This document shows, piece after piece, positions 11,651 through 61,879 of a DNA stretch of 64,000 nucleotides. The notes beneath the pieces are model-generated. The model saw only the letters and a program-made list of their open reading frames with translations, ran no database searches and had not been told where the DNA came from. Both the position numbers and the translations under genes were made by a program. This DNA comes from Singulisphaera sp. GP187 (GTDB lineage: Bacteria > Planctomycetota > Planctomycetia > Isosphaerales > Isosphaeraceae). The stretch lies in NCBI RefSeq assembly GCF_900129635.1, contig NZ_FSRB01000001.1:2643501-2707500 (forward strand), read 5' to 3'. The stretch's first letter is position 1; each line of letters begins with the position of its first letter.

Positions 11651-12766
11651 ATGCCCGACCCCCGCTGGGAGGCTCTCGCCGACATCCTGATCGGCCACTC
11701 GACTCGGCTCGAAAAAGGGCAAGTCCTGCTCATCGAGTGTTTCGATCTCGACGATAGCACCCTGCCCCGGCTCCTCGTCCAGAAAGCCGCGAGAAAAGGC
11801 GCCTTTCCCCTGGTTGAGACCAAGGACACGCGGATCATTCGCGAGCTCATCAAGAACGCTTCGGAGGGGCAGATGCGTGCCCTGGGCGACTTCGAGCTGC
11901 ACCGAATGAGCCAGGTTCACGCCTACATCGGTCTCCGAGGCGCGCGGAACATCAACGAGATGTCCGACGTGCAGGGGGAAAAGATGAACCTCTACAACAC
12001 GCACTACCTCAAGCCGGTCCACTTCGAGTGCCGGATCAAGCAAACGAAATGGTGCGTCCTCCGGCTCCCCAACTCGAGCATGGCCCAGCAGGCCGGGATG
12101 AGTACCGAGGCGTTTGAGAACTTCTATTTTGATGTCTGCAACCTCGACTATCCTCGACTCGCGAAGGCGCTGAGGCCGCTGGTCGAACGCATGACCAAGG
12201 CACGAGAGGTTCATATCAAGGCGCCGGAGACGGACCTGCGGTTCTCGATCGAAGGGATCCCGGTCATCCCTTGCTCGGGCGAGATGAATATCCCCGACGG
12301 CGAGGTCTTCACCGCCCCCGTACGCAACTCGGTTCAAGGTCACGTTCGCTTCAATACGCCGACGATCTACCAAGGTTCCTCGTTCGACGGCGTCCGGCTC
12401 GACTTCCGGGACGGGCGGATTGTCGAGGCGCACTGCACTGGGGGCGATGTCAAGAAGCTGCGGCGGATCTTCGAGACTGACGAAGGAGCCTCCTTCATCG
12501 GCGAATGGTCGATCGGGTGCAACCCGAGGATCCTCCATCCGATGCGGGACATCCTCTTCGACGAGAAGATCGCCGGCAGCTTTCACTTCACCCCCGGCAA
12601 CGCGTATGATGAGGCAGACAACGGCAATCGTTCGAAGATTCACTGGGATCTCGTGCAAATCCAACGATCCGACTATGGGGGCGGGAGCATCGCATTCGAC
12701 GGCGAGCCGATCCGGGTCGACGGCCGATTCATCCCCGAGGATCTCCAGGCACTCGATCCTGAATAA
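11651..12766 (+). CDS. M29-family aminopeptidase (AmpS/AmpT type)
   Basis: Metal-dependent aminopeptidase of the thermophilic M29 family, 371 residues, cytoplasmic. Expected metal-ligand segments are present in order: CSGEMNIPDGEVFTAP, FETDEGASFIGEWSIG, GSFHFTPGNAYDEADN and SKIHWDLV, giving the Glu, Glu, His, His and Asp set. The ATG at 11651 is preceded by AGGGA at a good distance; upstream codons in the same frame (11579, 11645) are less well placed. A coiled-coil gene follows 41 bases downstream. Peptide specificity is not predictable. Confidence 0.9.
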   Translation: MPDPRWEALADILIGHSTRLEKGQVLLIECFDLDDSTLPRLLVQKAARKGAFPLVETKDTRIIRELIKNASEGQMRALGDFELHRMSQVHAYIGLRGARNINEMSDVQGEKMNLYNTHYLKPVHFECRIKQTKWCVLRLPNSSMAQQAGMSTEAFENFYFDVCNLDYPRLAKALRPLVERMTKAREVHIKAPETDLRFSIEGIPVIPCSGEMNIPDGEVFTAPVRNSVQGHVRFNTPTIYQGSSFDGVRLDFRDGRIVEAHCTGGDVKKLRRIFETDEGASFIGEWSIGCNPRILHPMRDILFDEKIAGSFHFTPGNAYDEADNGNRSKIHWDLVQIQRSDYGGGSIAFDGEPIRVDGRFIPEDLQALDPE

Positions 12767-12807
12767 TTGACGAGGAACGTGCCCCGAACCCACGAGAGAA
12801 GCGCTCC

Positions 12808-13635
12808 ATGCTCACGACTCTCCTCCTCGCGCTGGCCCTGATCGGCCAGACCAAGAGCGACCCTGACCAGTTCCCGCTCGCCCTGCACCGGAGCATGGAG
12901 ATCGACGACCTCGACCGCGAAATCCAGCGGTTGCACGATACCGTCCTGCTCAAGCGCGCCCAGTTGGTCAGCACCAAACGCCTATCGCAACGCGGGCTGG
13001 TGAGCCGGGCCGACCTCGAACGGGAATCGGCCTCGCTACGCTACGAGGAAGCCCACGAGGCGGAATCGACCGCCTATCGGAATTTGAAGATCTACGAGCG
13101 CGACGTGATGGGCCGTGTCATCTCGGCCGACGAGGTCAAGGCGTACTCGCTCCTGCTCGACTGGGTCAAAAAACAGGCGACCATGGCCCAGGTCGACCTC
13201 GATTTTCGCGACTACACCCTCAAGCAGACTCGCGTTCTCTTCCAGCGAAAGGCGATCAGCCGACAAGAGCTCGACGACGCGGAACAGGCCTTCAACACCG
13301 CTCAGGCAAGCCTGGCCCTCAGCAAGTCGCGCGAGGCGCAAATCGTCATGGAACTCGCCGCGCGTCGAGGGGAAAAGTCGTACGACTCCGTGGAGTATCA
13401 GCGACTCAAAGGTTCTTACCTCAAGGCGCGGATCCAGTATTTCGAGGTCGTGACGGCCGGCTCCAAGAGCCAGTTGACGATCGCCCAACAGCGCTCGGCT
13501 CGCGGCCTGATCGCGACTGAGGACGTCGCCCTGTTCCAGAGGGCCGTCGATGACGCCGAGGCCGCCCTGGCCGCTGAGCGAAAGAAGCTGGAAGAGAACG
13601 AGTCCGACCCGGTTCAACCCGCGACGACGAACTGA
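12808..13635 (+). CDS. Exported coiled-coil protein with TolC/HlyD-like hairpin tips
   Basis: A 275-residue protein with a signal peptide (MLTTLLLALALIG) and otherwise almost entirely alpha-helical, heptad-rich sequence. Three helix-turn-helix tips resemble those of outer-membrane efflux and membrane-fusion proteins: RLSQRGLVSRADLERE, LFQRKAISRQELDDAEQAF and RSARGLIATEDVALFQRA. It has no beta-barrel or lipoyl domain, so it is neither a TolC nor a complete HlyD protein. A periplasmic structural or scaffolding role is inferred. It lies directly after the aminopeptidase gene, possibly in the same transcript. Confidence 0.6.
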   Translation: MLTTLLLALALIGQTKSDPDQFPLALHRSMEIDDLDREIQRLHDTVLLKRAQLVSTKRLSQRGLVSRADLERESASLRYEEAHEAESTAYRNLKIYERDVMGRVISADEVKAYSLLLDWVKKQATMAQVDLDFRDYTLKQTRVLFQRKAISRQELDDAEQAFNTAQASLALSKSREAQIVMELAARRGEKSYDSVEYQRLKGSYLKARIQYFEVVTAGSKSQLTIAQQRSARGLIATEDVALFQRAVDDAEAALAAERKKLEENESDPVQPATTN

Positions 13636-43008: not shown

Positions 43009-44088
43009 TCATCTTTGCCGATCCGGCTCGGATGCGGAAGAACCGCGACCACGATTCCCAAGGTCTGAGGCTCGAAGCGGCATTCGTGGTCGCCCCATCG
43101 CCTGCCGCGCCAACGCGGCGAGCGTCGCGGAATAGTCTCGGCCGGAAACCCGTAAGGCCCGCGCCCAACCCGCGGTCGGCCCGATATCGGGGTTGGGGTT
43201 CACTTCCAGGATCACGGGCTCGCCACGGTGATCGAGTCGCAGGTCGACCCTGGCATAGTCACGGCAACCCGTCACCTTGAACGCCGAGACGGCCAACCGG
43301 CACATGGTCTCGGCCAGTTCGCGTTCGATTCGCGCTGGGCAGAGCACAGGGCTTGCGCGGTCCTCAACCGATCCGGCCGACCACTTCGCCGCATAAGTCA
43401 AGATCGGCCATGTTCCTTCCACCGGCTCATAAGCAACTTCGGCAATCGGCAAGGCTTCGGGTTCGGGAAGCGCCAGCACCCCGACATTATATTCGGAGCC
43501 GGGCAAGTAGGCCTCGACCAACGCCGCGCCACCATACGTGGCATGGATCCAGACCACCCGGTCGCAGGCGGAATCCCAGTCGAGCACGACGCTCGCCTGA
43601 TCGATGCCGAGGCTGCCATCCTCAGCGTCCGGCTTGACGATCGCCGGGCCGGCCCAGTCCCACCTCGGGACCGCCGCGCCCGGTTCAACCACGAAACCGG
43701 GCGCGGTGGGCAGACCCGCGCCCCTCAAAAGGAACTTGGCTCGCCCTTTCGAGACACAGAGCGCCAACGCTTCCATCGGCGAGCCGGTGTATGCAAAGCC
43801 GGCCAGTTCCAGCAGCCCGGTCATGTGGGTCGCTGCCGCCGTCGATGCCCCGAACCCTTCGATCAAGTTGAACGCAACGTCCGGGCCGATCCGGTCGAGA
43901 CTACGGAGCACCTCGACCACGGGAGGTCTCACCGCGAGTAACACCGATTCGAAACCGTGATTCTCGAGCCCGGCGGCAACGGCCTGAGCGACCTCGACGA
44001 CATCCGCTTCCGATACGGCGTCCGGATGATCCACCGGCAAGACCGGCGCATTGTAGAGAACAGCGACCTTCAAGCGGACCGAGGTCAC
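43009..44088 (-). CDS. ATP-grasp ligase, D-Ala-D-Ala-ligase-like (second of pair)
   Basis: 359 residues. ATP-grasp elements: an N-terminal domain (LKVAVLYNAPVL...), FNLIEGFGASTAAATHMTGL, GFAYTGSPMEALALCVSK, GPAIVKPDAEDGSLG (glycine-rich loop), ALVEAYLPGSEYNVGVLAL, and the Mg-site EVNPNPDIGP. It starts at GTG 44088, overlapping the first ligase's stop by GTGA, so the two are translationally coupled. Relative to true Ddl it lacks part of the omega-loop pattern, so the substrate is probably not D-alanine but another amino acid. Confidence 0.85.
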   Translation of the reverse strand: MTSVRLKVAVLYNAPVLPVDHPDAVSEADVVEVAQAVAAGLENHGFESVLLAVRPPVVEVLRSLDRIGPDVAFNLIEGFGASTAAATHMTGLLELAGFAYTGSPMEALALCVSKGRAKFLLRGAGLPTAPGFVVEPGAAVPRWDWAGPAIVKPDAEDGSLGIDQASVVLDWDSACDRVVWIHATYGGAALVEAYLPGSEYNVGVLALPEPEALPIAEVAYEPVEGTWPILTYAAKWSAGSVEDRASPVLCPARIERELAETMCRLAVSAFKVTGCRDYARVDLRLDHRGEPVILEVNPNPDIGPTAGWARALRVSGRDYSATLAALARQAMGRPRMPLRASDLGNRGRGSSASEPDRQR

Positions 44089-45125
44089 AGCCCCACCCTC
44101 GCCCTTGAAATCGGCTCCAGGCCGACACGGAGCAAAGCCACGCGGAGGACTTTGCGGATCATGTCGGCATAGCTGATCCCCATCCCACCGGCCAGAATGA
44201 TCAGGTCGCTCCAATCGGGAGCCAGACCAGGGAGCGGGTTCGCTTCGATGAAGTAAGGAACACCGTCGCGAATCCGAAAGTCGATCCGTGCGAGGTCGCG
44301 GCAGCCTAGCGCTACGTAAGCGCCAAGGGCCGACCGGATCAAGTGTTTCATGACGTCGGCGGAAAGTTGGGCGGGCGTCTCGTACGCCACGCGCTCGTCC
44401 CAGTCGCGTTTCACCTCGATCGAGTAGACGAAACGAGAGTCGGGCGTCTTCGGCCGAATCCGCATGGCCCCGATCACTTCCGCTCCATCCCCGTTGCCGA
44501 CGATCCCCACCGTCACCTCATCGCCCGCGATGAATTCCTCAATCAGGACGGGCTGGCCGTAGTCGCCTGAGAGAACCATGTAAAGCTCGACGGCTTCCTC
44601 ATGGGTATCGGCGATGCAACGCGCACGAATCCCTTTGCTGGAGCCTTCGAAGCAAGGCTTGACGATCCATTGATCGGCCCCTTCCCAAAGGCCTGCGTGG
44701 TGCATCAAGGAGCCGACTGCACGCGAGGACAGGCCGGCGGGGAAGGAGAACCCCTTGGGCACGGCGACCGAATCGGCGACCAGCCGCTTGGCGACTCCTT
44801 TGTCGAGCGCGGCGGCGAGCGTCAGGGGGTCGGACCCCGAGTACGGGATCCCGAGCATCTCGAGCACGGCCGGCACGCGTGCCTCACGGTTCCGGCCCCC
44901 CCCTTCCCCCTCGGCGAGGTTCCAGACGAAGTCAGGGGGATCGGCGAGGACGCGATGGAGAAATTCGCGACCATCGCCCAACAGAACGACATCATGCCCT
45001 TCACCCCGGAGCACCGCGGCCAAGGCCTCGATCGTTTGCGGCTTATCGAACTCCTCGTACCGGTCGTCGGGCCCGTCAGCCGAGGCGACAACCGGTACGA
45101 GGTCGAACGTGATCCCGATCCTCAA
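44085..45125 (-). CDS. ATP-grasp ligase, D-Ala-D-Ala-ligase-like (first of pair)
   Basis: 346 residues. Features: GITFDLVPVVASAD, FVWNLAEGEGGGRNREARVP, GIPYSGSDPLTLAAALDK, WIVKPCFEGSSKGI (glycine-rich loop), VLIEEFIAGDEVTVGIVG, ARIDFRIRDGVPYFIEANP and LPGLAPDWSD. These follow D-Ala-D-Ala ligase order, with the NPLPGL Mg-binding end. The start is TTG at 45125, since AGAGGA lies nine bases upstream and there is no ATG nearby. It begins 18 bases after kamA and overlaps the second ligase. Amino-acid ligation at a carboxylate, forming a dipeptide-like product, is inferred. Confidence 0.87.
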   Translation of the reverse strand: MRIGITFDLVPVVASADGPDDRYEEFDKPQTIEALAAVLRGEGHDVVLLGDGREFLHRVLADPPDFVWNLAEGEGGGRNREARVPAVLEMLGIPYSGSDPLTLAAALDKGVAKRLVADSVAVPKGFSFPAGLSSRAVGSLMHHAGLWEGADQWIVKPCFEGSSKGIRARCIADTHEEAVELYMVLSGDYGQPVLIEEFIAGDEVTVGIVGNGDGAEVIGAMRIRPKTPDSRFVYSIEVKRDWDERVAYETPAQLSADVMKHLIRSALGAYVALGCRDLARIDFRIRDGVPYFIEANPLPGLAPDWSDLIILAGGMGISYADMIRKVLRVALLRVGLEPISRARVGL

Positions 45126-45143
45126 GGCGCGGGTCCTCTCAAT

Positions 45144-46571
45144 TTAATGGTCCGGAGTGTGACCTTGGCCATGTCCGTTGCCAGCCGAGCCATTGGATTT
45201 CTTCGGGCTCGCCCCCTGGGTCCCGTGGCCGTTGAGCCCGTTGGCGATCCCCCTGGCCCGTCTTCGAAGTAGGCGGGGATTGCCCTCAGGAACGAGGACT
45301 TCCGCCTGGCCTTCGAGCAGGGCGCTCACCCCCTGGGTCACGACCGCAGCTTGCTTCAACGGCGGCTCACCCGTGGGGTGATAGTTGACGATCACCCCTT
45401 CATAGTTGCGCAAGACGACGGAGTCGTTGGTCGCCGAGAGCAGGTAGTTGGGCATCAAGGGGATCTTGCCCCCTCCCCGTGGCGCATCGACGACGTAGGT
45501 GGGAACTCCCAGTCCCGAGATGTGACCGCGAAGCCCCTCAATGATCTCGATCCCTTTCCAGACCGGGGTCCGGAAGTGCCCTGCCCCGGTCACGGGATCA
45601 CAGTGGAACAGGTAATACGGCCTCACCTTGATCCGAAGCAGGGCCCGGCAAAGCGCGCGCTGAGTGGCCAGGCTGTCGTTGACCCCCTTCAGGAGCACGG
45701 CGTGGTTGTTGATCGGCAGCCCGCGCATCCGCAATCGATCGCAGGCGCGTCGCGTTTCCGACGTCACTTCCCGAGGATGGTTGAAGTGCGTCTGGATCCA
45801 AATTTTTCCTGAGGACTCAAGAATATCAAGAAGGTTATTGTCCTCGATCCGTTGCGGCAAGGTCACAGGCACGCGGGTGCCGATCCGGATGACGTCGAGG
45901 TGGGGGATGGCGCTCAGGCTCTCGACGAAGTAGGCGAGTTTCTCGAGCGGAAGGGTCAGTGGGTCGCCTCCCGAGACGATCACGTCGTGGATCTCGGGGT
46001 GGTCGCGAACGTACTCGACCATTCGCTGATCGTCGCGCGAGACCGAATCCCAGCCGCCCCGTTTCATGGTGGCGCGTTTCCGGGTGCAGAACCGGCAATA
46101 CATCGTGCAAACGTGGGTGGTGACGAGCAGGGCGCGATCGGGATAGCGATGCGTCAGGCCCGGGACGGGGGAATCCTTATCCTCGTCGAGCGGATCATCC
46201 TCTCCCTCCGCGCCAGTCATCTCCAAGGGGGAAGGGACCGATTGGAGTCGGATCGGATCGAGCGGATCGAACCGATCGATCAAGGAGAAGTAATAAGGGG
46301 GAATGGCAAGCTTGTATTGAGCCTGAAGCGACTCAATGGCGTGGCGTTCATCATCGGTGAACGGAATCAAATCGAGAATCTGGCGGGGGTGCCGGACGGC
46401 ATTTTGCGACTGCCAGTGCCAGTCGTTCCAATCACTGTCGGGCACGTTGGCCCAGACGGGGTGGCGGGGGGTTGGTTGCAGGGGCGAACTGGGAGGCTCG
46501 TCGCCATCGGCAACCTCGACCGCATCTGGGATGGTGACGGCTGTGCTCGTTGAGCTACTCGGCTCGCCCAT
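45144..46571 (-). CDS. kamA: L-lysine 2,3-aminomutase
   Basis: Radical SAM/PLP enzyme converting L-lysine to L-beta-lysine. 475 residues, a size closer to KamA than to the shorter EpmB. Iron-sulfur motif CTMYCRFC (C155, C159, C162), substrate-binding region FHCDPVTGAGHFRTP with D325, VVDAPRGGGKIP with D362 and PLP Lys K369. The two Asp positions thought to hold the epsilon-amino group of lysine are kept, which argues against a glutamate aminomutase. The C-terminal 60 residues are Gly/Ser/Asn-rich and unlike the family. First gene of the four-gene minus-strand operon. Confidence 0.92.
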   Translation of the reverse strand: MGEPSSSTSTAVTIPDAVEVADGDEPPSSPLQPTPRHPVWANVPDSDWNDWHWQSQNAVRHPRQILDLIPFTDDERHAIESLQAQYKLAIPPYYFSLIDRFDPLDPIRLQSVPSPLEMTGAEGEDDPLDEDKDSPVPGLTHRYPDRALLVTTHVCTMYCRFCTRKRATMKRGGWDSVSRDDQRMVEYVRDHPEIHDVIVSGGDPLTLPLEKLAYFVESLSAIPHLDVIRIGTRVPVTLPQRIEDNNLLDILESSGKIWIQTHFNHPREVTSETRRACDRLRMRGLPINNHAVLLKGVNDSLATQRALCRALLRIKVRPYYLFHCDPVTGAGHFRTPVWKGIEIIEGLRGHISGLGVPTYVVDAPRGGGKIPLMPNYLLSATNDSVVLRNYEGVIVNYHPTGEPPLKQAAVVTQGVSALLEGQAEVLVPEGNPRLLRRRARGIANGLNGHGTQGASPKKSNGSAGNGHGQGHTPDH

Positions 46572-54210: not shown

Positions 54211-54756
54211 ATGCGTTTTGTCCTGATCGACCGGATCGTCGAACTCAAGCAGGGGCAATCACTGGTTGCGGTCAAGAACCTCTCGCTCGCCGAGGAGTAT
54301 CTGGCGGACCACTTCCCCGGTTTTCCCGTGATGCCGGGCGTGCTCATGCTCGAGGCGCTGACGCAGGCCGGCGCCTGGCTGATCCGTGATCTCGAGGACT
54401 TTGCGCACAGTGTGGTCCTGCTCAAGCAGGCCAAGACGATCAAATACGGCAGTTTCGTCGAGCCGGGCCGACAGCTCCAGTTGCGGGTCGAGCTGATCTC
54501 GCATGGCGAACGCGAGAGCACATTCAAAGGATCAGGGGTGATTGACGGCCAGGATATGGTGAAAGGCCGATTCACTCTGACACGATACAACCTAAGGGAA
54601 CGCGACCCCGAGCTTCACGCCACCGACGCGTCGATCGTGGCGGGGCTTCGCGACCTCTATGCGACACTTCGGAAGGGCTCGGTGGGGGCCCGCGCGATGA
54701 TCAAGTTCGGCACACCGCCGGTCGTCGCCGCAGTCGCCCCCGGAGCGGACGCTTGA
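54211..54756 (+). CDS. FabZ-like 3-hydroxyacyl-ACP dehydratase (first)
   Basis: 181-residue hot-dog-fold protein beginning MRFVLIDRIVELKQG. The active-site helix has LADHFPGFPVMPGVLMLEAL with catalytic His and Glu retained, matching FabZ (HFPGxPVMPGVL.ExxAQ). It probably removes water from a 3-hydroxyacyl chain on the acyl carrier protein encoded next. A C-terminal 30-residue extension (GARAMIKFGTPPVVAAVAPG) is unusual. Start chosen at 54211 to match FabZ. Confidence 0.85.
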   Translation: MRFVLIDRIVELKQGQSLVAVKNLSLAEEYLADHFPGFPVMPGVLMLEALTQAGAWLIRDLEDFAHSVVLLKQAKTIKYGSFVEPGRQLQLRVELISHGERESTFKGSGVIDGQDMVKGRFTLTRYNLRERDPELHATDASIVAGLRDLYATLRKGSVGARAMIKFGTPPVVAAVAPGADA

Positions 54757-55106: not shown

Positions 55107-55493
55107 ATGCCGACACACGATGAGATCTTCCAGAAAGTCCAAGCCACTTTGGTCGATGCCCTGGGCGTGGACGAGGAGGATGTGACCAGCGACGCCACCC
55201 TCCAGGGCAACCTGGGCGCGGAATCGATCGACTTCCTCGATATCGTGTTCCGACTCGAACGGAACTTCGGGATCAAGATCCCCCGCGGCGAGCTGTTCCC
55301 GGAAAACGTCGTCTCCGACCCGGAGATGATCCAGGATGGGAAGCTGACCTCCAAGGGGATCGATGAGCTGAAGACGCGGATGCCCTACGCCGACCTGTCG
55401 AGCTTCACCGCGGATCCCGACGTGGAAAAGATCGGTGATCTATACACGGTCGAGATGCTGGTTCAGTACGTGCAGAGCAAGCTCTCCGCCTGA
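55107..55493 (+). CDS. Acyl carrier protein
   Basis: 128 residues, longer than AcpP. The carrier helix is QGNLGAESIDFLDIVFRLER, with the phosphopantetheine Ser in GAES instead of the common GADS, as in polyketide-type carriers. Its C-terminal extension (about 85-128; ELKTRMPYADLSSFTADPD, LYTVEMLVQYVQSKLSA) is characteristic of dedicated ACPs of non-essential pathways. TTGAGGA precedes the ATG. It lies between two dehydratase genes and would carry the growing chain. Confidence 0.9.
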   Translation: MPTHDEIFQKVQATLVDALGVDEEDVTSDATLQGNLGAESIDFLDIVFRLERNFGIKIPRGELFPENVVSDPEMIQDGKLTSKGIDELKTRMPYADLSSFTADPDVEKIGDLYTVEMLVQYVQSKLSA

Positions 55494-55634: not shown

Positions 55635-56183
55635 ATGAGATGGATCTGGATCGACAAGTTCCTGGAATTCCGCAGCGGAGAGTTCGCGCGTGCCATCAAG
55701 AATTTGACGCTCGCGGAAGAACATCTGCACGACCACTTTCCCGGCTACCCGGTCATGCCCGCCTCGCTCATCATTGAAGGGCTGGCACAGACCGGCGGGA
55801 TCTTGGTCGGTGAGGCGGGGGGTTTCGCTGAGAAGGTGGTCCTGGCAAAAATTCCCCGGGCGGAATTCTTTGGTGTGGCCTGCGCAGGCGATCAATTGAT
55901 CTACGAGGTCACCCTGACCGACCTGCGGAGCGAAGGGGCCGTGGTGGACGCCAAGGCGTTCCTCGACGGTGAACTGCTCGCCGACGTTGAAATTGTCTTC
56001 GCCCATCTGGATAACTCGCGAGCGAACCAGATCTTCGGGCCGAAGAACTTCGTTTTTACCCAGCAACTGTTGGGTGTTCTCGATCTGGCCAAGGCGCAGA
56101 ACCGGGCTCGGGAGATCGCCAGTTCCGCGTCGTCCACCACCAATGGACAGCCCAAAGAAACATCTCCTCCGCAGTCGGATTGA
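55635..56183 (+). CDS. FabZ-like 3-hydroxyacyl-ACP dehydratase (second)
   Basis: 182 residues. Starts MRWIWIDKFLEFRSGEF, with an active-site segment DHFPGYPVMPASLIIEGL keeping catalytic His and Glu; the usual Gly-Val-Leu is Ala-Ser-Leu. The C-terminus (residues 150-182) is polar and disordered. Directly followed by the KS-beta gene. With the first copy it could form a heterodimer, as seen for paired dehydratases in aryl-polyene clusters; that is inference. Confidence 0.83.
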   Translation: MRWIWIDKFLEFRSGEFARAIKNLTLAEEHLHDHFPGYPVMPASLIIEGLAQTGGILVGEAGGFAEKVVLAKIPRAEFFGVACAGDQLIYEVTLTDLRSEGAVVDAKAFLDGELLADVEIVFAHLDNSRANQIFGPKNFVFTQQLLGVLDLAKAQNRAREIASSASSTTNGQPKETSPPQSD

Positions 56184-56314
56184 TTGAAAACGTGTTAACC
56201 GGTTGAGCCCGGCGTCCCCAAAAGACCCGTGTGGGGCGGGGGACGAGGCAACGAGTTTGCCGCCCTCGGCACCTTCGAGCCAAACCCACCACGGTGGAGA
56301 GCGACGAGTTCCTC

Positions 56315-57646
56315 ATGCTTCGTTCCGAACGCCGTGTGGTTATCACCGGACTTGGTCTCGTCAGTCCCCTCGGGATTGGCCCGGAAGCCAATTGGGCCGC
56401 CCTCTCCGAGGGGCGGGGTGCCGTGCACAAGCTCACGGCATTCCCGGTCGAGAACTTGCCCAATGACGTCGGTGGAGAAGTCCCCGACTTCAACCCCAAG
56501 ACGTGGCCCAAAAAGTACGCTCTGCCCGATCCTGAGCACCGCAAGGCGCTCACCAAGAGCATGAAGTACATGGCCCGCGACATCCAACTCGCGGTGGCCG
56601 CCGCCGAGCTGGCCTTCATCGACGCCGGCTTGGCGGAAGGGGCGATCGACCCCACCCGAATTGGCGTCGACCTCGGGGCCGGCCTGATCTCCACCGAGCT
56701 CGACGAGCTCGCCCCGGCGATCAACCACGCCTCCCAGAACGGCGGCGCATTCGACTATCGCATCTGGGGCCGAGAGAGCATCGGCCAGATCCCGCCGATC
56801 TGGCTCTTGAAGTATCTGCCCAACATGCTCGCCTGCCACATCTCGATTTTGCTCGACTGCCAAGGGCCGAGCAACACGATCACCGAGGCCGAGTCCGCCT
56901 CGAACCTGGCGATCGGTGAGGCGAGCCGGATCATCGCCCGAGGGCGAGCCGACCTCATGATCACCGGCGGAGCCGACTCGAAAATCCATCCGCTCAGCCT
57001 CGTGCGCATGAGCCTGCTCGAGCAAATGTCCCACTGGAGCGGTGACCCAACCGGCGCCTGCCGACCGTTCGACGTGCAACGCGACGGCTGGGTGCCCGGC
57101 GAAGGGGCGGGGATTCTCGTTCTTGAAGAACGTGAACATGCTCTCAAGCGAGGTGCGCGGATTCACGGTGAGATCCTCGGCTTCGGCTCGGGGTGCGACG
57201 CCACGCCGGGCGGCGGGCTCGATCCCGACGGGATCGGCACCGAGATCGCCCTCAACGCGGCACTCCGCGACGCGGGGCTGGCGCCGTCCGAAGTCGGTCA
57301 CGTCAACGCCCATGGCGCGGCCTCGAAGATTTCCGACCTCGCCGAGGCCCGGGCCTTCCATCGCGTCTTCGGCGGGGCGAACGTTCCCGTCACCGCGCTC
57401 AAGGGCTACATGGGCAACCTCGTGTCGGGTTGCGGAGTGGTCGAGTTGATTTCCAGCTTGATCGGGGTCAACCAAGGGAAGATTCCCCAGACCCTCAACT
57501 GCGATGAGCTCGATCCCGCCTGCGTCGTCGACCTCATCCGAGGCGCTTCGCGTGATACCAACAACCCGATTTTCGTGAACACCAATCTCACCCGGCACGG
57601 TCAGGCGGCCGCCCTGGTCGTCCGTGGCAATTCGGCCGCGAACTGA
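56315..57646 (+). CDS. Ketosynthase-like chain-length-factor-type protein (KS-beta), no catalytic Cys
   Basis: 443 residues with the thiolase-fold KAS architecture: RRVVITGLGLVSPLG, LMITGGADSKIHPLS, CRPFDVQRDGWVPGEGAGIL and VNAHGAAS. The residue aligning with the nucleophilic Cys is Glu193 (NTITEAESASN). The His of KSMxGH is Asn (KGYMGNLVSG), and the C-terminal NSFGFGG is NTNLTRHG. Thus it cannot condense by itself and resembles chain-length factors, although these usually have Gln. The intact ketosynthase begins 34 bases downstream; the pair probably forms a heterodimer. Confidence 0.85.
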   Translation: MLRSERRVVITGLGLVSPLGIGPEANWAALSEGRGAVHKLTAFPVENLPNDVGGEVPDFNPKTWPKKYALPDPEHRKALTKSMKYMARDIQLAVAAAELAFIDAGLAEGAIDPTRIGVDLGAGLISTELDELAPAINHASQNGGAFDYRIWGRESIGQIPPIWLLKYLPNMLACHISILLDCQGPSNTITEAESASNLAIGEASRIIARGRADLMITGGADSKIHPLSLVRMSLLEQMSHWSGDPTGACRPFDVQRDGWVPGEGAGILVLEEREHALKRGARIHGEILGFGSGCDATPGGGLDPDGIGTEIALNAALRDAGLAPSEVGHVNAHGAASKISDLAEARAFHRVFGGANVPVTALKGYMGNLVSGCGVVELISSLIGVNQGKIPQTLNCDELDPACVVDLIRGASRDTNNPIFVNTNLTRHGQAAALVVRGNSAAN

Positions 57647-57679
57647 CAAAGAGACTTTCGCCGTCGAGGAACTGGCTCC

Positions 57680-58963
57680 ATGCGTCGAATCGTCGTGACA
57701 GGAATGGGAATGGTCACGCCTCTGGGCCCTAACCTGGAGGCGACTTGGTCCGCGCTTCAGGAAGGGCGGAGCGGCGTCGGCACCATCACGCTGTTCGATG
57801 CCGAGACTTTTCCAACCCGGATCGCCGCCGAGGCGACCAACTTCGCGCTCGAAGACTACATCAGCGATGCGCCACGCTGGCAGGAATACTGTCGGAATAC
57901 GAAGTTTGCGATCGCGGCCGCCCAGATGGCGATCGACCATTCCGGGCTCGCGACCGTGAAGGACCTCGACCGCTCCCGGTTCGGTGTCTACCTGGGCTCT
58001 GGGGAAGGTCAGCAGGACTTTCCTCGGTTCGTCGAGTTGGTGCGGAACGCAACTCGCCAAGGGAAGGTCGACACGACCGTCTTCACCAGCCAGGGGCTTC
58101 GCAAACTCCACCCGATCCATGAAGCCGAGCAAGAGCCGGGTACTCCGTCGGGGCACCTCGCAAGCCTCTTCGGGGCCCGCGGCCCGAACGCCAATTGCTT
58201 GACCGCCTGCGCCGCGAGCTCGCAGGCGATCGGCGAGGCGACCGAGATCATCCGCCGCGGTGACGCCGACGTGATGTTGTCGGGCGGCACGCACAGCATG
58301 ATCCACCCGTTCGGCGTGACTGGCTTCAACCTCTTGACCGCGCTCTCGACCCGCAACGACGACCCCACCCGCGCCAGCCGTCCCTTCGACCGCGACCGCG
58401 ACGGATTCATCCTCGGGGAAGGTGCGGGCATGCTCATTCTTGAAGAATTAGAGCACGCCAAGAAACGCGGTGCAACAATCTATGGTGAAGTCGCCGGCTA
58501 CGGCTCGACCGCCGACGCGTTCCGGATTACCGACAGCCACGACGAAGGCCGAGGTGCCATCGCTTGCATGCGAGAGGCCTTGGCCCAAGCCCAACTGAAC
58601 CCGGAGGACGTTGATTATATCAACGCACACGGGACGAGTACGTCCGTCAATGACTCAGTTGAGACGTTGGCGATCAAGCGAACTTTTGGTGAGCAAGCCT
58701 ATCAGGTGCCGATCTCAAGCACCAAGAGCATGATGGGTCACCTGATCGCCGCGGCGGGCAGCGTCGAGGCGATTGTTTGTCTCCTGACGATTCGTGACGG
58801 GGTCGTTCCTCCGACGATCAACCTCGACAACCCCGGTCCTGACTGCGACCTCGACTACATCCCCCACGTCGCCAGGCGCAAGCTGGTCGACGTTACGTTC
58901 TCAAACAGTTTCGGTTTCGGCGGACAGAACATCGCCTTGATTCTTCGACGTTTCGCCGGCTGA
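57680..58963 (+). CDS. Beta-ketoacyl-ACP synthase (KS-alpha)
   Basis: Condenses malonyl-ACP with an acyl primer. 427 residues, FabF-like. Catalytic residues all present: C177 in NCLTACAASSQA, His in INAHGTSTSVND, Lys/His in TKSMMGHLIAAAG, and the C-terminal SNSFGFGGQN. It has GAGGA nine bases before the ATG. Together with the preceding KS-beta-like protein, ACP and two dehydratases it forms an iterative type II system, which appears to lack a ketoreductase gene within this window. Confidence 0.92.
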   Translation: MRRIVVTGMGMVTPLGPNLEATWSALQEGRSGVGTITLFDAETFPTRIAAEATNFALEDYISDAPRWQEYCRNTKFAIAAAQMAIDHSGLATVKDLDRSRFGVYLGSGEGQQDFPRFVELVRNATRQGKVDTTVFTSQGLRKLHPIHEAEQEPGTPSGHLASLFGARGPNANCLTACAASSQAIGEATEIIRRGDADVMLSGGTHSMIHPFGVTGFNLLTALSTRNDDPTRASRPFDRDRDGFILGEGAGMLILEELEHAKKRGATIYGEVAGYGSTADAFRITDSHDEGRGAIACMREALAQAQLNPEDVDYINAHGTSTSVNDSVETLAIKRTFGEQAYQVPISSTKSMMGHLIAAAGSVEAIVCLLTIRDGVVPPTINLDNPGPDCDLDYIPHVARRKLVDVTFSNSFGFGGQNIALILRRFAG

Positions 58964-59056: not shown

Positions 59057-60094
59057 GTGTCCACTTCGTCTCTCCTGATCCTGCTGGTACCGACGCTCGT
59101 GGCGCTCGGCACGCTAGCGGTGTTCCTTATCCATGTCGCGATTCGGTACACGCCGATCGTGGGCCGGGTTTTCGAGGAGAAACCACTCTTCCTTCCGCTT
59201 CGCGTCTCTCCCCTCCAGAACGATGGTGAAGAAGTCTCGTTCACCACCAAGGACGGCCTGAAACTCGCCGGCACGTACCTCACCGCCCGGACTGCGTCCC
59301 GGCTCGGCGTCCTCGTTTTCTGCCATGAATACTTGTCCGATCGCTGGAGCTATCGCCCCTACGCCGATTACCTTCGCGACCTCGGTTTCGATATCTTTAC
59401 GTTCGACTTTCGCAACCACGGAAAAAGCGAGAGCGACCCCCAGTACAAGCCTCTGCAGTGGGTGACCGACCACGAGACCGCCGACCTTCGGGGCGCCTTG
59501 GCCTACCTCCGAACCCGCCCCGACCGCGATCCGGCCGGCTTCGGACTCTATGGGATCAGCCGAGGCGGAGGCACCGCCTTGGTCACCGCGGCCCGGGATC
59601 CCGGCGTCTGGGGTGTGATCACCGATGGCGCCTTCCCGACCCGGGGAACGATGCTCGCCTACATCCTCCGCTGGGCGGAGATCTACGTGGGCAGTCCGAT
59701 CTTGTGGAAGCGGATGCCGCTCTGGGTCTTCTCCTACGTCGGTTTCATGGGCCGGATGCAGTCGCAGCGTAACCTTCGCTGCCACTTCCCCGACGTGGAA
59801 CGCGCGGTGGCTCGGCTGGCACCGCGCCCTTGGCTGATGATCCACGGCGGCAAGGACGCCTACATCGGTCCCGAGATCGCCCGGCTCCTCTTCGCCGAAG
59901 CACGTGAACCCAAAGAGTTGTGGATCGTGCCGGGAGCCAAGCATAATCGCTGTCGCGAGGTCCAGCCCGAATCCTATGCCGAGCGCGTCAGCTCGTTCCT
60001 CGGCCGCGTGGCTCCGCGTCGGCCCCTCCCTAAAGAAACGGCCGTGCCGGTCGGTCAGGTGACCAAGGAAATGACTTCCTCGGGAGTTCTCTGA
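59057..60094 (+). CDS. Membrane-anchored alpha/beta hydrolase
   Basis: 345 residues. One N-terminal transmembrane segment (LLILLVPTLVALGTLAVFLI) is followed by an alpha/beta hydrolase domain: VLVFCHEYLSDRW (oxyanion region), FDFRNHGKSES, nucleophile elbow YGISRGGGTAL, IHGGKDAYIGPE (Asp) and GAKHNRC (His). All three catalytic residues are visible. GTG start at 59057. It lies between the KS pair and the GH3-type gene, so hydrolysis or transfer of a finished acyl product is plausible. Confidence 0.82.
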   Translation: MSTSSLLILLVPTLVALGTLAVFLIHVAIRYTPIVGRVFEEKPLFLPLRVSPLQNDGEEVSFTTKDGLKLAGTYLTARTASRLGVLVFCHEYLSDRWSYRPYADYLRDLGFDIFTFDFRNHGKSESDPQYKPLQWVTDHETADLRGALAYLRTRPDRDPAGFGLYGISRGGGTALVTAARDPGVWGVITDGAFPTRGTMLAYILRWAEIYVGSPILWKRMPLWVFSYVGFMGRMQSQRNLRCHFPDVERAVARLAPRPWLMIHGGKDAYIGPEIARLLFAEAREPKELWIVPGAKHNRCREVQPESYAERVSSFLGRVAPRRPLPKETAVPVGQVTKEMTSSGVL

Positions 60095-60172
60095 ACTTCC
60101 GCCTCCTTCGATTCGGGCCGCCGCGCGGCTCGCGGCCGAACGGCAGGAACCGTTGAAGGATTGGCGGCATCG

Positions 60173-61879
60173 ATGCTCTATCTATTTCGGAAGTATGCCG
60201 GATTGCCGCTCCTCAATCGCTCACGGCGGTTGGCGCGGCATTTCCTTGCTCAGACGAGTCGCGCTGACGAAGTTCAGCGCGACTTACTCATGTCACGGAT
60301 CGCTCGTCACGCCGAGAGTCAGTTCGGCCGCGATCATCACTTCCACGAAATCCGGACCCCCGCCGACTTCCGTCGCCGCGTCCCGATTCGCGCCTACGAC
60401 GCGATGGAACCGTACATCGACCGCGTCCGCCAAGGCGACCTCGGCGCCTTGTTCGGCGCCGGCACCAAGGTGTTGATGTTCGCGATGACCTCGGGAACAA
60501 CCAATCGTCCCAAGACGATCCCGGTCACCCAGGAGTCGCTCAACGACTACCGCGAAGGATGGACGATCTGGGGCATTCAGGCGTTCGATGCGCACCCGCA
60601 AATCCTCGCTCGCGGTCTGCTCCCGATCCTGCAAATCGCCAGCGACTGGCGCGAGAGCATGACCCCGTCCGGGATCCCGTGCGGAGCGATCACCGGGCTG
60701 ACGGCCCACATGCAGAACCCGCTGATCCGGTTGACCTACTGCATGCCCGCGATCGCGTCGCGGATCAAGGACATCGAATCGAAATATTATGTAGCGCTTC
60801 GGCTTTCGGTCTTCCGCAACCTGGGCACGACGATCGCCGCGAATCCGAGCACGATCCTGGCGATCGCGCGGCTCGGCGACCGTGAGAAGGCCACCCTGAT
60901 TCGCGACATTGCCGACGGCACGCTCAACGCGAAGTGGGACCTTCCCGCCGACGTCCGCGAAGCGCTCCGCCGAAAGGTCGGCCGCAAGCACAAGAAGGCA
61001 GCGCGGCGGCTCGAGGCGATCGTCAATCAGACGGGTCGGTTGCTCCCCAAGGATTACTGGCCCAACCTCTGCTTCCTGGCGAACTGGACCGGCGGCACCA
61101 TGGGCTCTTACCTCCGGAACTACCCGGAGTACTTCGGCGACCGCCCGGTCCGCGACGTCGGTCTCATCGCTTCGGAAGGGCGGATGACGATTCCGATCGA
61201 GGACGGAACCCCCGCGGGCGTTCTCGATATCCGCCACCACTACTTCGAGTTCATCCCCGAGGACCAGGCGGACCGCGAAGCGCCCGAGACCGTTGAGGCC
61301 CACGAGTTGATCGAAGGCCAACGCTACTTCATCCTCCCAACCACCGCGGGGGGTCTCTATCGCTACCAGATTCACGACCTGATCCGGTGCGTCGGGTTCC
61401 ACGGCAAGGCCCCCGTTATCGAATTCCTCAACAAAGGGGCCCACTTCTCGAGCCTGACCGGAGAGAAGCTGTCTGAATTCCAGGTCGTCGCCGCGGTCAG
61501 TGCCGCGCAGCGGACCCTCAACCTGCGGATTGGCTCGTTCTTGCTCCTCCCGAGTTGGGGCGATCCCCCCCACTACAACCTCCTCGTGGAAGAGTCCGAC
61601 CTGGTCGATCGCGGCATCGCCGAGGCGCTCGCCCACGAAGTCGAAGCCGAACTGCAGCGCCTGAACCTCGAATACGAAAACAAGCGCTCAACCCTCCGAC
61701 TCGGCCCAATTCGGATACGCCGCATTCCGACCGGATCTTGGTCCGATTTTCAAAAGAGGCGACTGGCGAGGAGTGGGGGAACCGTCGAACAATATAAGCA
61801 GCCGCACCTGATGCCTGACCTCGGAGCGTTGGAAACGTTCCGACTCAGTGACACCGCTTGGACTTCGCTCGCGGACTGA
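60173..61879 (+). CDS. GH3-type acyl-acid amido synthetase
   Basis: 568 residues of the ANL adenylate-forming GH3 family (auxin-responsive promoter type in annotations), which activates a carboxylic acid with ATP and joins it to an amino acid or amine. ATP-binding FAMTSGTTNRPKTIPVTQES, then FLANWTGGTMGSY, GLIASEGRMTIPIEDG, TTAGGLYRYQIHDLIRC and the C-terminal hinge region FQKRRLARSGGT. ATG at 60173; an in-frame TTG 12 bases upstream is also open. Last member of the FAS/PKS-like run, a candidate chain-release enzyme. Confidence 0.88.
   Translation: MLYLFRKYAGLPLLNRSRRLARHFLAQTSRADEVQRDLLMSRIARHAESQFGRDHHFHEIRTPADFRRRVPIRAYDAMEPYIDRVRQGDLGALFGAGTKVLMFAMTSGTTNRPKTIPVTQESLNDYREGWTIWGIQAFDAHPQILARGLLPILQIASDWRESMTPSGIPCGAITGLTAHMQNPLIRLTYCMPAIASRIKDIESKYYVALRLSVFRNLGTTIAANPSTILAIARLGDREKATLIRDIADGTLNAKWDLPADVREALRRKVGRKHKKAARRLEAIVNQTGRLLPKDYWPNLCFLANWTGGTMGSYLRNYPEYFGDRPVRDVGLIASEGRMTIPIEDGTPAGVLDIRHHYFEFIPEDQADREAPETVEAHELIEGQRYFILPTTAGGLYRYQIHDLIRCVGFHGKAPVIEFLNKGAHFSSLTGEKLSEFQVVAAVSAAQRTLNLRIGSFLLLPSWGDPPHYNLLVEESDLVDRGIAEALAHEVEAELQRLNLEYENKRSTLRLGPIRIRRIPTGSWSDFQKRRLARSGGTVEQYKQPHLMPDLGALETFRLSDTAWTSLAD

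Follow-up and report, generated by a model that had tools for sequence, protein, structure and literature searches.

A ketosynthase homologue with a carboxylate in place of the catalytic cysteine, a probable chain-length-factor-like partner subunit in Planctomycetota

The gene at positions 56315..57646 (+) of the DNA analysed here, a stretch of 64,000 nucleotides from Singulisphaera sp. GP187 (the window), encodes a Cys-less ketosynthase-like protein of FabF fold (KSbeta; 443 aa from the ATG at 56315) and precedes the gene of an intact ketosynthase (KSalpha). KSbeta is probably a ketosynthase pseudoenzyme and would form the non-catalytic half of a putative KSalpha-KSbeta heterodimer that extends a dedicated acyl chain on the ACP of its operon, much in the manner of a chain-length factor (CLF). 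The observations behind this reading are the residue pattern of KSbeta and its conservation, the operon, the pairing of the two proteins at genome level, their reciprocal signatures and the order of evolutionary events.

Glu193 of KSbeta (codon GAG, 56891..56893 (+)) is situated within TITEAESASN and aligns without gaps to Cys163 of FabF. The histidine of the KSMxGH motif (FabF His340) is replaced by Asn368 (57416..57418 (+)) in the context KGYMGN, the histidine at the FabF His303 position is retained as His333 (57311..57313 (+)), and the triad reads E-H-N. Residues 419-432 (57569..57610 (+)) take the place of the NSFGFGG gating loop, with VNTNLTRHGQ standing where that motif would be. The original prediction had called these three changes in an otherwise complete fold, and it is borne out on each of them. 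Both ketosynthase Pfam domains are recognised (142.7 and 77.8 bits), the AlphaFold2 model is a full ketosynthase fold with a mean pLDDT of 91.6, and FabF chains came top when this model was used in a PDB fold search (Z about 62, rmsd 1.7-1.8, about 405 residues), 1TQY_A and 6KXD_A also being among the chains listed. A misalignment hiding a Cys was ruled out, as the ungapped and PDB alignments concur. KSbeta scores 308.2 bits against the NCBIfam fabF model, below the cutoff of 493.75, and lacks the Cys-His-His that defines FabF (KAS II). On the opposite strand an ORF of 703 aa (56195-58306 (-)) spans KSbeta and half of KSalpha, and is presumably an effect of high G+C.

On the same strand of the window the genes run FabZ1, ACP, FabZ2, KSbeta, KSalpha, alpha/beta hydrolase and GH3. 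FabZ1 (54211..54756 (+)) is a FabZ/FabA-like hot-dog dehydratase (PF07977, 67.9 bits; FabZ profile 96.5 bits, below the cutoff of 113) that retains the DHFP His and the LEAL Glu, to which we ascribe the usual motif roles. The ACP (55107..55493 (+), 128 aa) has its carrier domain at residues 9-64 (PF00550, 42 bits), with GAESID as what we take to be the phosphopantetheine motif; past this domain it carries about 60 extra C-terminal residues, a typical ACP having 80 aa. FabZ2 (55635..56183 (+); PF07977, 59.4 bits) is likewise a FabZ-like dehydratase and shares 39% identity with FabZ1 across 114 aa. The intact ketosynthase expected downstream is indeed present: KSalpha (57680..58963 (+)) has Cys-His-His and NSFGFGG, scores 512.5 bits against TIGR03150 fabF, above the cutoff of 493.75, starts after a gap of 33 bp and is 36% identical to KSbeta at the protein level. 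It is followed by an alpha/beta hydrolase (59057..60094 (+); PF12146/PF00561 and synteny), possibly a thioesterase or acyltransferase, and by a GH3-family acyl-adenylate/amide synthetase-like protein (60161..61879 (+); PF03321, 242.5 bits). No ketoreductase was found in the window operon, the genes examined include neither an aromatase nor a cyclase, and a promoter and terminator scan gave counts near those of shuffles. Elsewhere in the window, at 43009-46571 (-), two ATP-grasp-ligase-like ORFs lie beside a radical-SAM lysine-2,3-aminomutase-like ORF with a CTMYCRFC motif, as judged by eye from the translation.

Glu at the active site had been proposed as a distinct variant that might be conserved across Planctomycetes, and it is not specific to this strain, but the feature kept is Asp or Glu rather than Glu alone. 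Across many planctomycete families, the FabF Cys163 column was acidic in 83 of 89 KSbeta rows (Glu 60, Asp 23), a pattern far removed from chance. The six others, which count against the proposed reading of KSbeta, are S, S, G, G, Q and N. The hand-picked spread of 49 KSbeta rows used for the tree reads E27, D20, S1 and G1, and 40 extra loci, picked so as to bring in other families and second copies and possibly overlapping the former in species under differing names, read E33, D3, Q1, N1, S1 and G1. Identical sequences were removed ahead of the counts (235 reduced to 193). A larger de-duplicated set had the acid in 113 of 116 rows (E67, D46; the remainder S, G and the Cys form L045); this set was selected on W163, K81 and L168 and therefore lends no support to those positions. 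When the acid column is left out of a KSbeta tree of 49 rows, Asp and Glu are seen to have interchanged at least 10 times, and three changes between acid and non-acid are needed when the two Cys rows are included as outgroup. This repeated interchange indicates that charge, and not residue identity, is conserved. Mutual information of each column with the D/E state gave no strong partner column. A salt bridge between E193 and K/R223 is possible; the basic residue is present in 67/83 acidic and 4/6 non-acidic rows, and its presence is not coupled to the acid. No relatives were found in the viral contigs scanned.

KSbeta and KSalpha carry reciprocal signatures. In the 89 KSbeta rows K81, M86, L168 and N187 are each present in 89/89, W163 in 86/89 and K166 in 82/89, and the K84 position is K or R in 48/49 rows of the tree set and 40/40 of the extra loci. 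The segment W163-L168 (WLLKYL, 56801..56818 (+)) is a KSbeta signature at FabF 133-138, a region which together with FabF 108 we take to line the pocket at the dimer interface. KSalpha, in KSbeta numbering, has E at 124 in 44/45 rows, E164 in 44/45, E166 in 43/45 and Q167 in 44/45. The Glu at 124 is KSalpha Glu109 (58004..58006 (+)), at the position of FabF Ile108, presumably in the acyl pocket; 27 of the 45 rows were selected by this residue, and the 18 unselected rows have it in 17. Lys81 and Lys84 of KSbeta (codons 81 to 84, 56555..56566 (+)) occupy the positions of FabF K65 and R68 in docking region 1, which bind AcpP (PMC7138838), and KSalpha has a basic residue (K or R) at the K65 position in 4/27 rows of one set and 0/18 of another. 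In the reported FabF-AcpP structure most ACP contacts come from the monomer without the crosslinked site (PMC7138838), and in the ishigamide complex the CLF is reported to be contacted by the ACP (PMC8358021). If the same holds here, the ACP feeding KSalpha would dock on KSbeta, and KSalpha, mostly without the basic residue, would not bring an ACP to the dead KSbeta site.

Among the best 80 of 165 confirmed loci in the named genome collection, the order FabZ1-ACP-FabZ2-KSbeta-KSalpha recurs in Isosphaeraceae, Gemmataceae and Phycisphaerae MAGs, with the hydrolase and GH3 downstream mainly in Isosphaeraceae and Gemmataceae. The KSbeta and KSalpha genes overlap in one Phycisphaerales genome (L110), where a seryl-tRNA-synthetase-like gene (11667-12944) is found immediately 3' of KSalpha. 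Planctomycete KSbeta-family genes were also encountered in MAGs labelled Kuenenia (L100, L101, L120, L123, L125) or Actinomycetota (L137); these labels are probably wrong, or the bins mixed.

The pairing was assessed in 195 planctomycete genomes at least 90% complete, with KSalpha called by profile score (E at most 1e-145, family f18 left out). KSalpha was present in 56 genomes and KSbeta in every one of those 56: a KSbeta-level match in 55, and in the last (G172) a lower-scoring match whose site reads GPSNTITAGEAS. The 56 are made up of 27/27 genomes of the same class, our own counted, and 29/168 others. Four f18 genomes carry a Cys-Cys form of the pair or score with it, about 135 of the 195 have neither KSalpha nor KSbeta at the thresholds used, and by score none has KSbeta without either KSalpha or the f18 Cys pair. 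Site residues were read in the loci retrieved; elsewhere KSbeta, KSalpha and ordinary FabF were told apart by score. The KSalpha-KSbeta system is widespread in planctomycetes, though not universal. At three loci (L197, L200, L299) a KSbeta paralogue sits beside a different FabF-like ketosynthase, and at two of them, L197 and L200, an ACP is matched weakly. This arrangement suggests a second pairing and that the partner is not always this KSalpha.

One may ask whether KSbeta acts instead as a stand-alone homodimeric acyl-binding or scaffold protein for which KSalpha is no obligate partner. KSbeta genes do occur outside the KSalpha operon, at loci that lack FabZ1, ACP, FabZ2, KSalpha, hydrolase and GH3 neighbours. 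We call the genomes concerned, from four further families of this class (f2 to f5), Pirellulales-type, since among named loci a lone KSbeta comes mostly from Pirellulales; many such genomes have two KSbeta-level matches. KSalpha was nevertheless found in 8/8 of these genomes searched (63-68% identical), and in 7/7 of those checked the FabZ1-ACP-FabZ2-KSalpha row is intact without KSbeta, which is encoded elsewhere in the genome. The consistent co-occurrence by score, the complementary charges of the two proteins and the linked forms with a 33-bp gap or overlapping genes make a stand-alone role unlikely. That KSbeta is a neutral relic, a decaying duplicate which has lost its Cys and in which the acid is incidental, would agree with the variation in the remaining catalytic residues among relatives. 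This explanation is very improbable and already largely refuted: the nearest copy, in Singulisphaera acidiphila, is 95% identical with a dN of 0.022 against a dS of 0.34 (dN/dS about 0.065), matches are found in 43/45 genomes of the family (26/26 among those of good quality), and the gene is on these grounds not a decayed one. The acid has, moreover, been held over very deep divergence with its repeated D/E exchange.

The original prediction allowed for either different chemistry or a purely structural role, and the structural role emerges as the better alternative. A KSQ decarboxylating ketosynthase has Gln at the site and keeps both histidines. In a comparable manner the acid of KSbeta could act with His333 (and Asn368, as in FabH) to turn malonyl-ACP into an acetyl starter. 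His333 persists in 44/49 rows of the tree set, a level that a dead site would not call for, Lys363 is retained in 47/49, and E-H-N is akin to the Cys-His-Asn triad reported for priming ketosynthases (PMC12664062). Against this, KSbeta has Glu or Asp at the site and N368, and the acid outlasts the histidines: among the 36 acidic rows of the 40 extra loci 17 are without either catalytic His, 15 have the first only, 3 have both and 1 the second only, His333 being missing in 18/36; the sequence segments themselves bear out the aligned residues. The GFGG loop is gone, the equivalents of T161, T305, F400 and N404 are lost in the 49-row tree set, and the carboxylate of malonyl would be repelled by that of the site. 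As both histidines are gone in so many acidic rows and these equivalents are lost, decarboxylation using the His pair is unlikely as the function of the family, though possible in lineages retaining His333, and we consider KSQ-like chemistry in KSbeta improbable.

From these sequence features we infer a heterodimer, docking of the ACP on KSbeta, a role for the acid, and a product of reducing fatty-acid or polyene type. KSbeta as the non-catalytic partner would contribute the docking lysines K81 and K84 and hold the ACP, while KSalpha, with the sole working Cys-His-His site, would elongate the chain carried on it; W163, L164 and Y167 of KSbeta would form part of the wall of a shared acyl channel. 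The carboxylate at the former nucleophile position would bar both acyl chains and malonyl groups from the KSbeta site and probably contributes to fixing the closed pocket. Each round would be processed by the two FabZ-like dehydratases, joined by a ketoreductase in at least one Pirellulales-type operon, that of L231, inside which a ketoreductase-like SDR is found. Given the two dehydratases and the absence of aromatase and cyclase from the genes examined, the chain would probably be reduced or polyene-like and not aromatic. Release of the product and its coupling to an amine may fall to the hydrolase and the GH3 protein encoded downstream, the latter step being suggested by the presence of GH3 itself. 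Asp113 of the ishigamide synthase is reported to promote the release of beta-ketoacyl-ACP so that it can be reduced and dehydrated (PMC8358021), and KSalpha Glu109 may, by numbering only, be the counterpart of this Iga11 residue.

The evidence leans, without being compelling, towards Planctomycetota having evolved a CLF-like ketosynthase pseudoenzyme independently of actinomycetes, with an obligatory carboxylate instead of Gln, as a partner in a second, dedicated synthase of the fatty-acid type that has two dehydratases and an ACP to itself, and with a heterodimer specialisation that, judging from the Cys-Cys lineages, preceded the loss of Cys. In a tree of 85 of 86 rows (a short Streptomyces CLF, L186, aligned too poorly for its site residue to be read and was dropped), all 49 KSbeta rows fell in one clade (support 99). 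Sister to this acidic clade (support 98) are two Cys-bearing proteins, a second ketosynthase of our own genome and the first ketosynthase of the f18 operon. The f18 loci (L188-L190) are arranged FabZ1-ACP-FabZ2-KS-KS with Cys in both ketosynthases, the first of which already has K81 and WLLKHL, and this operon is likely a living intermediate. The Cys-bearing protein of our own genome (G000:C3:465483-466748, own_L002; 8427-9758 in L191) is an orphan, with no FabZ or ACP relatives within the 17 kb around it. An economical reading of these forms would have duplication followed by specialisation of interface and docking, and then by replacement of Cys with the acid. Two Streptomyces CLFs of the Gln type fall apart from the KSbeta clade on this quick tree, in a part where branches are long and the tree is weak; the best-hit order of a PDB sequence search with KSbeta, in which FabF ranks first, before 1TQY_B, agrees with their separate placement.

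If true, this would add KSbeta as the second ketosynthase known to have become a partner subunit, independently of the first and with its apparent intermediate still alive, and the order of events, docking and interface before the loss of Cys, would be open to testing. The persistence of the carboxylate beyond the catalytic histidines also questions the reading of every non-Cys ketosynthase as a decarboxylase. Planctomycetes are noted for unusual lipids, and the KSalpha-KSbeta operon points to a conserved acyl-chain synthase without an assigned product. Gene knockout has been reported within the genus, in S. acidiphila (PMC12493201).

The same substitution is on record for two FabF paralogues of Rhodopirellula baltica, NP_865682 (Asp163) and NP_866153 (Glu163), in Table 2 of Rattray et al. 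2009 (PMC2649909), and we assume from the residue pattern that both belong to the KSbeta family. A different substrate was suggested there; the accessible text of that account treats the paralogues as odd FabF proteins of unknown substrate and contains no CLF role, operon or conservation analysis. A 2023 catalogue lists Planctomycetes among the phyla with KS-CLF pairs (PMC10132072). Our search of the open-access literature returned the acidic substitution in PMC2649909 only, and yielded nothing on conservation of the acid, on the pairing or on the operon. OlsH and OlsI of ornithine-lipid synthesis in S. acidiphila are likewise reported as GH3 beside an alpha/beta hydrolase (PMC12493201). The window proteins were rejected as that pair: the GH3 protein scores 87 bits against the OlsH model (cutoff 620) and is 23% identical to part of an OlsH-like protein, and the hydrolase has no similarity to an OlsI-like protein (E 0.54). 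An OlsH/OlsI-like locus is present elsewhere in this genome.

The window ACP scores 40.3 bits against PRK06508, which we take to be the AcpXL model, below its cutoff of 83, and is not classed as AcpXL-type. A dedicated ACP, a FabZ and two adjacent ketosynthase genes are nonetheless shared with the rhizobial acpXL-fabZXL-fabF2XL-fabF1XL row for the very-long-chain fatty acid of lipid A (PMC11901934). AmcF-AmcG of cispentacin biosynthesis, which belongs to a set resembling type II PKS, is also described as a ketosynthase whose partner is devoid of functional motifs (PMC10698177), but AmcG is a reduced "cyclization factor" whereas KSbeta has a complete ketosynthase fold.

The closest likeness in kind is to the CLFs of type II PKS (actinorhodin 1TQY_B; ishigamide KS/CLF 6KXD), which like KSbeta have a ketosynthase fold that has lost its Cys and an intact ketosynthase as partner. 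KSbeta lies beside an intact KSalpha in the window and in most linked loci, though not in the Pirellulales-type genomes, and the two Streptomyces CLFs compared resemble it in having Lys or Arg at the FabF K65 position. They differ in having D and R where the KSbeta family has mostly H and N, and both they and 1TQY_B have Gln at the site, a residue found in 1/89 KSbeta rows. The proposal of a KS-beta or CLF with a distinct residue therefore stands in so far as KSbeta is Cys-less and unlike the Gln-type CLFs, but the two Streptomyces CLFs tested do not share its clade on the quick tree. By its probable working KSbeta would be of the CLF kind, and by the features tested it falls outside the actinomycete CLF family.
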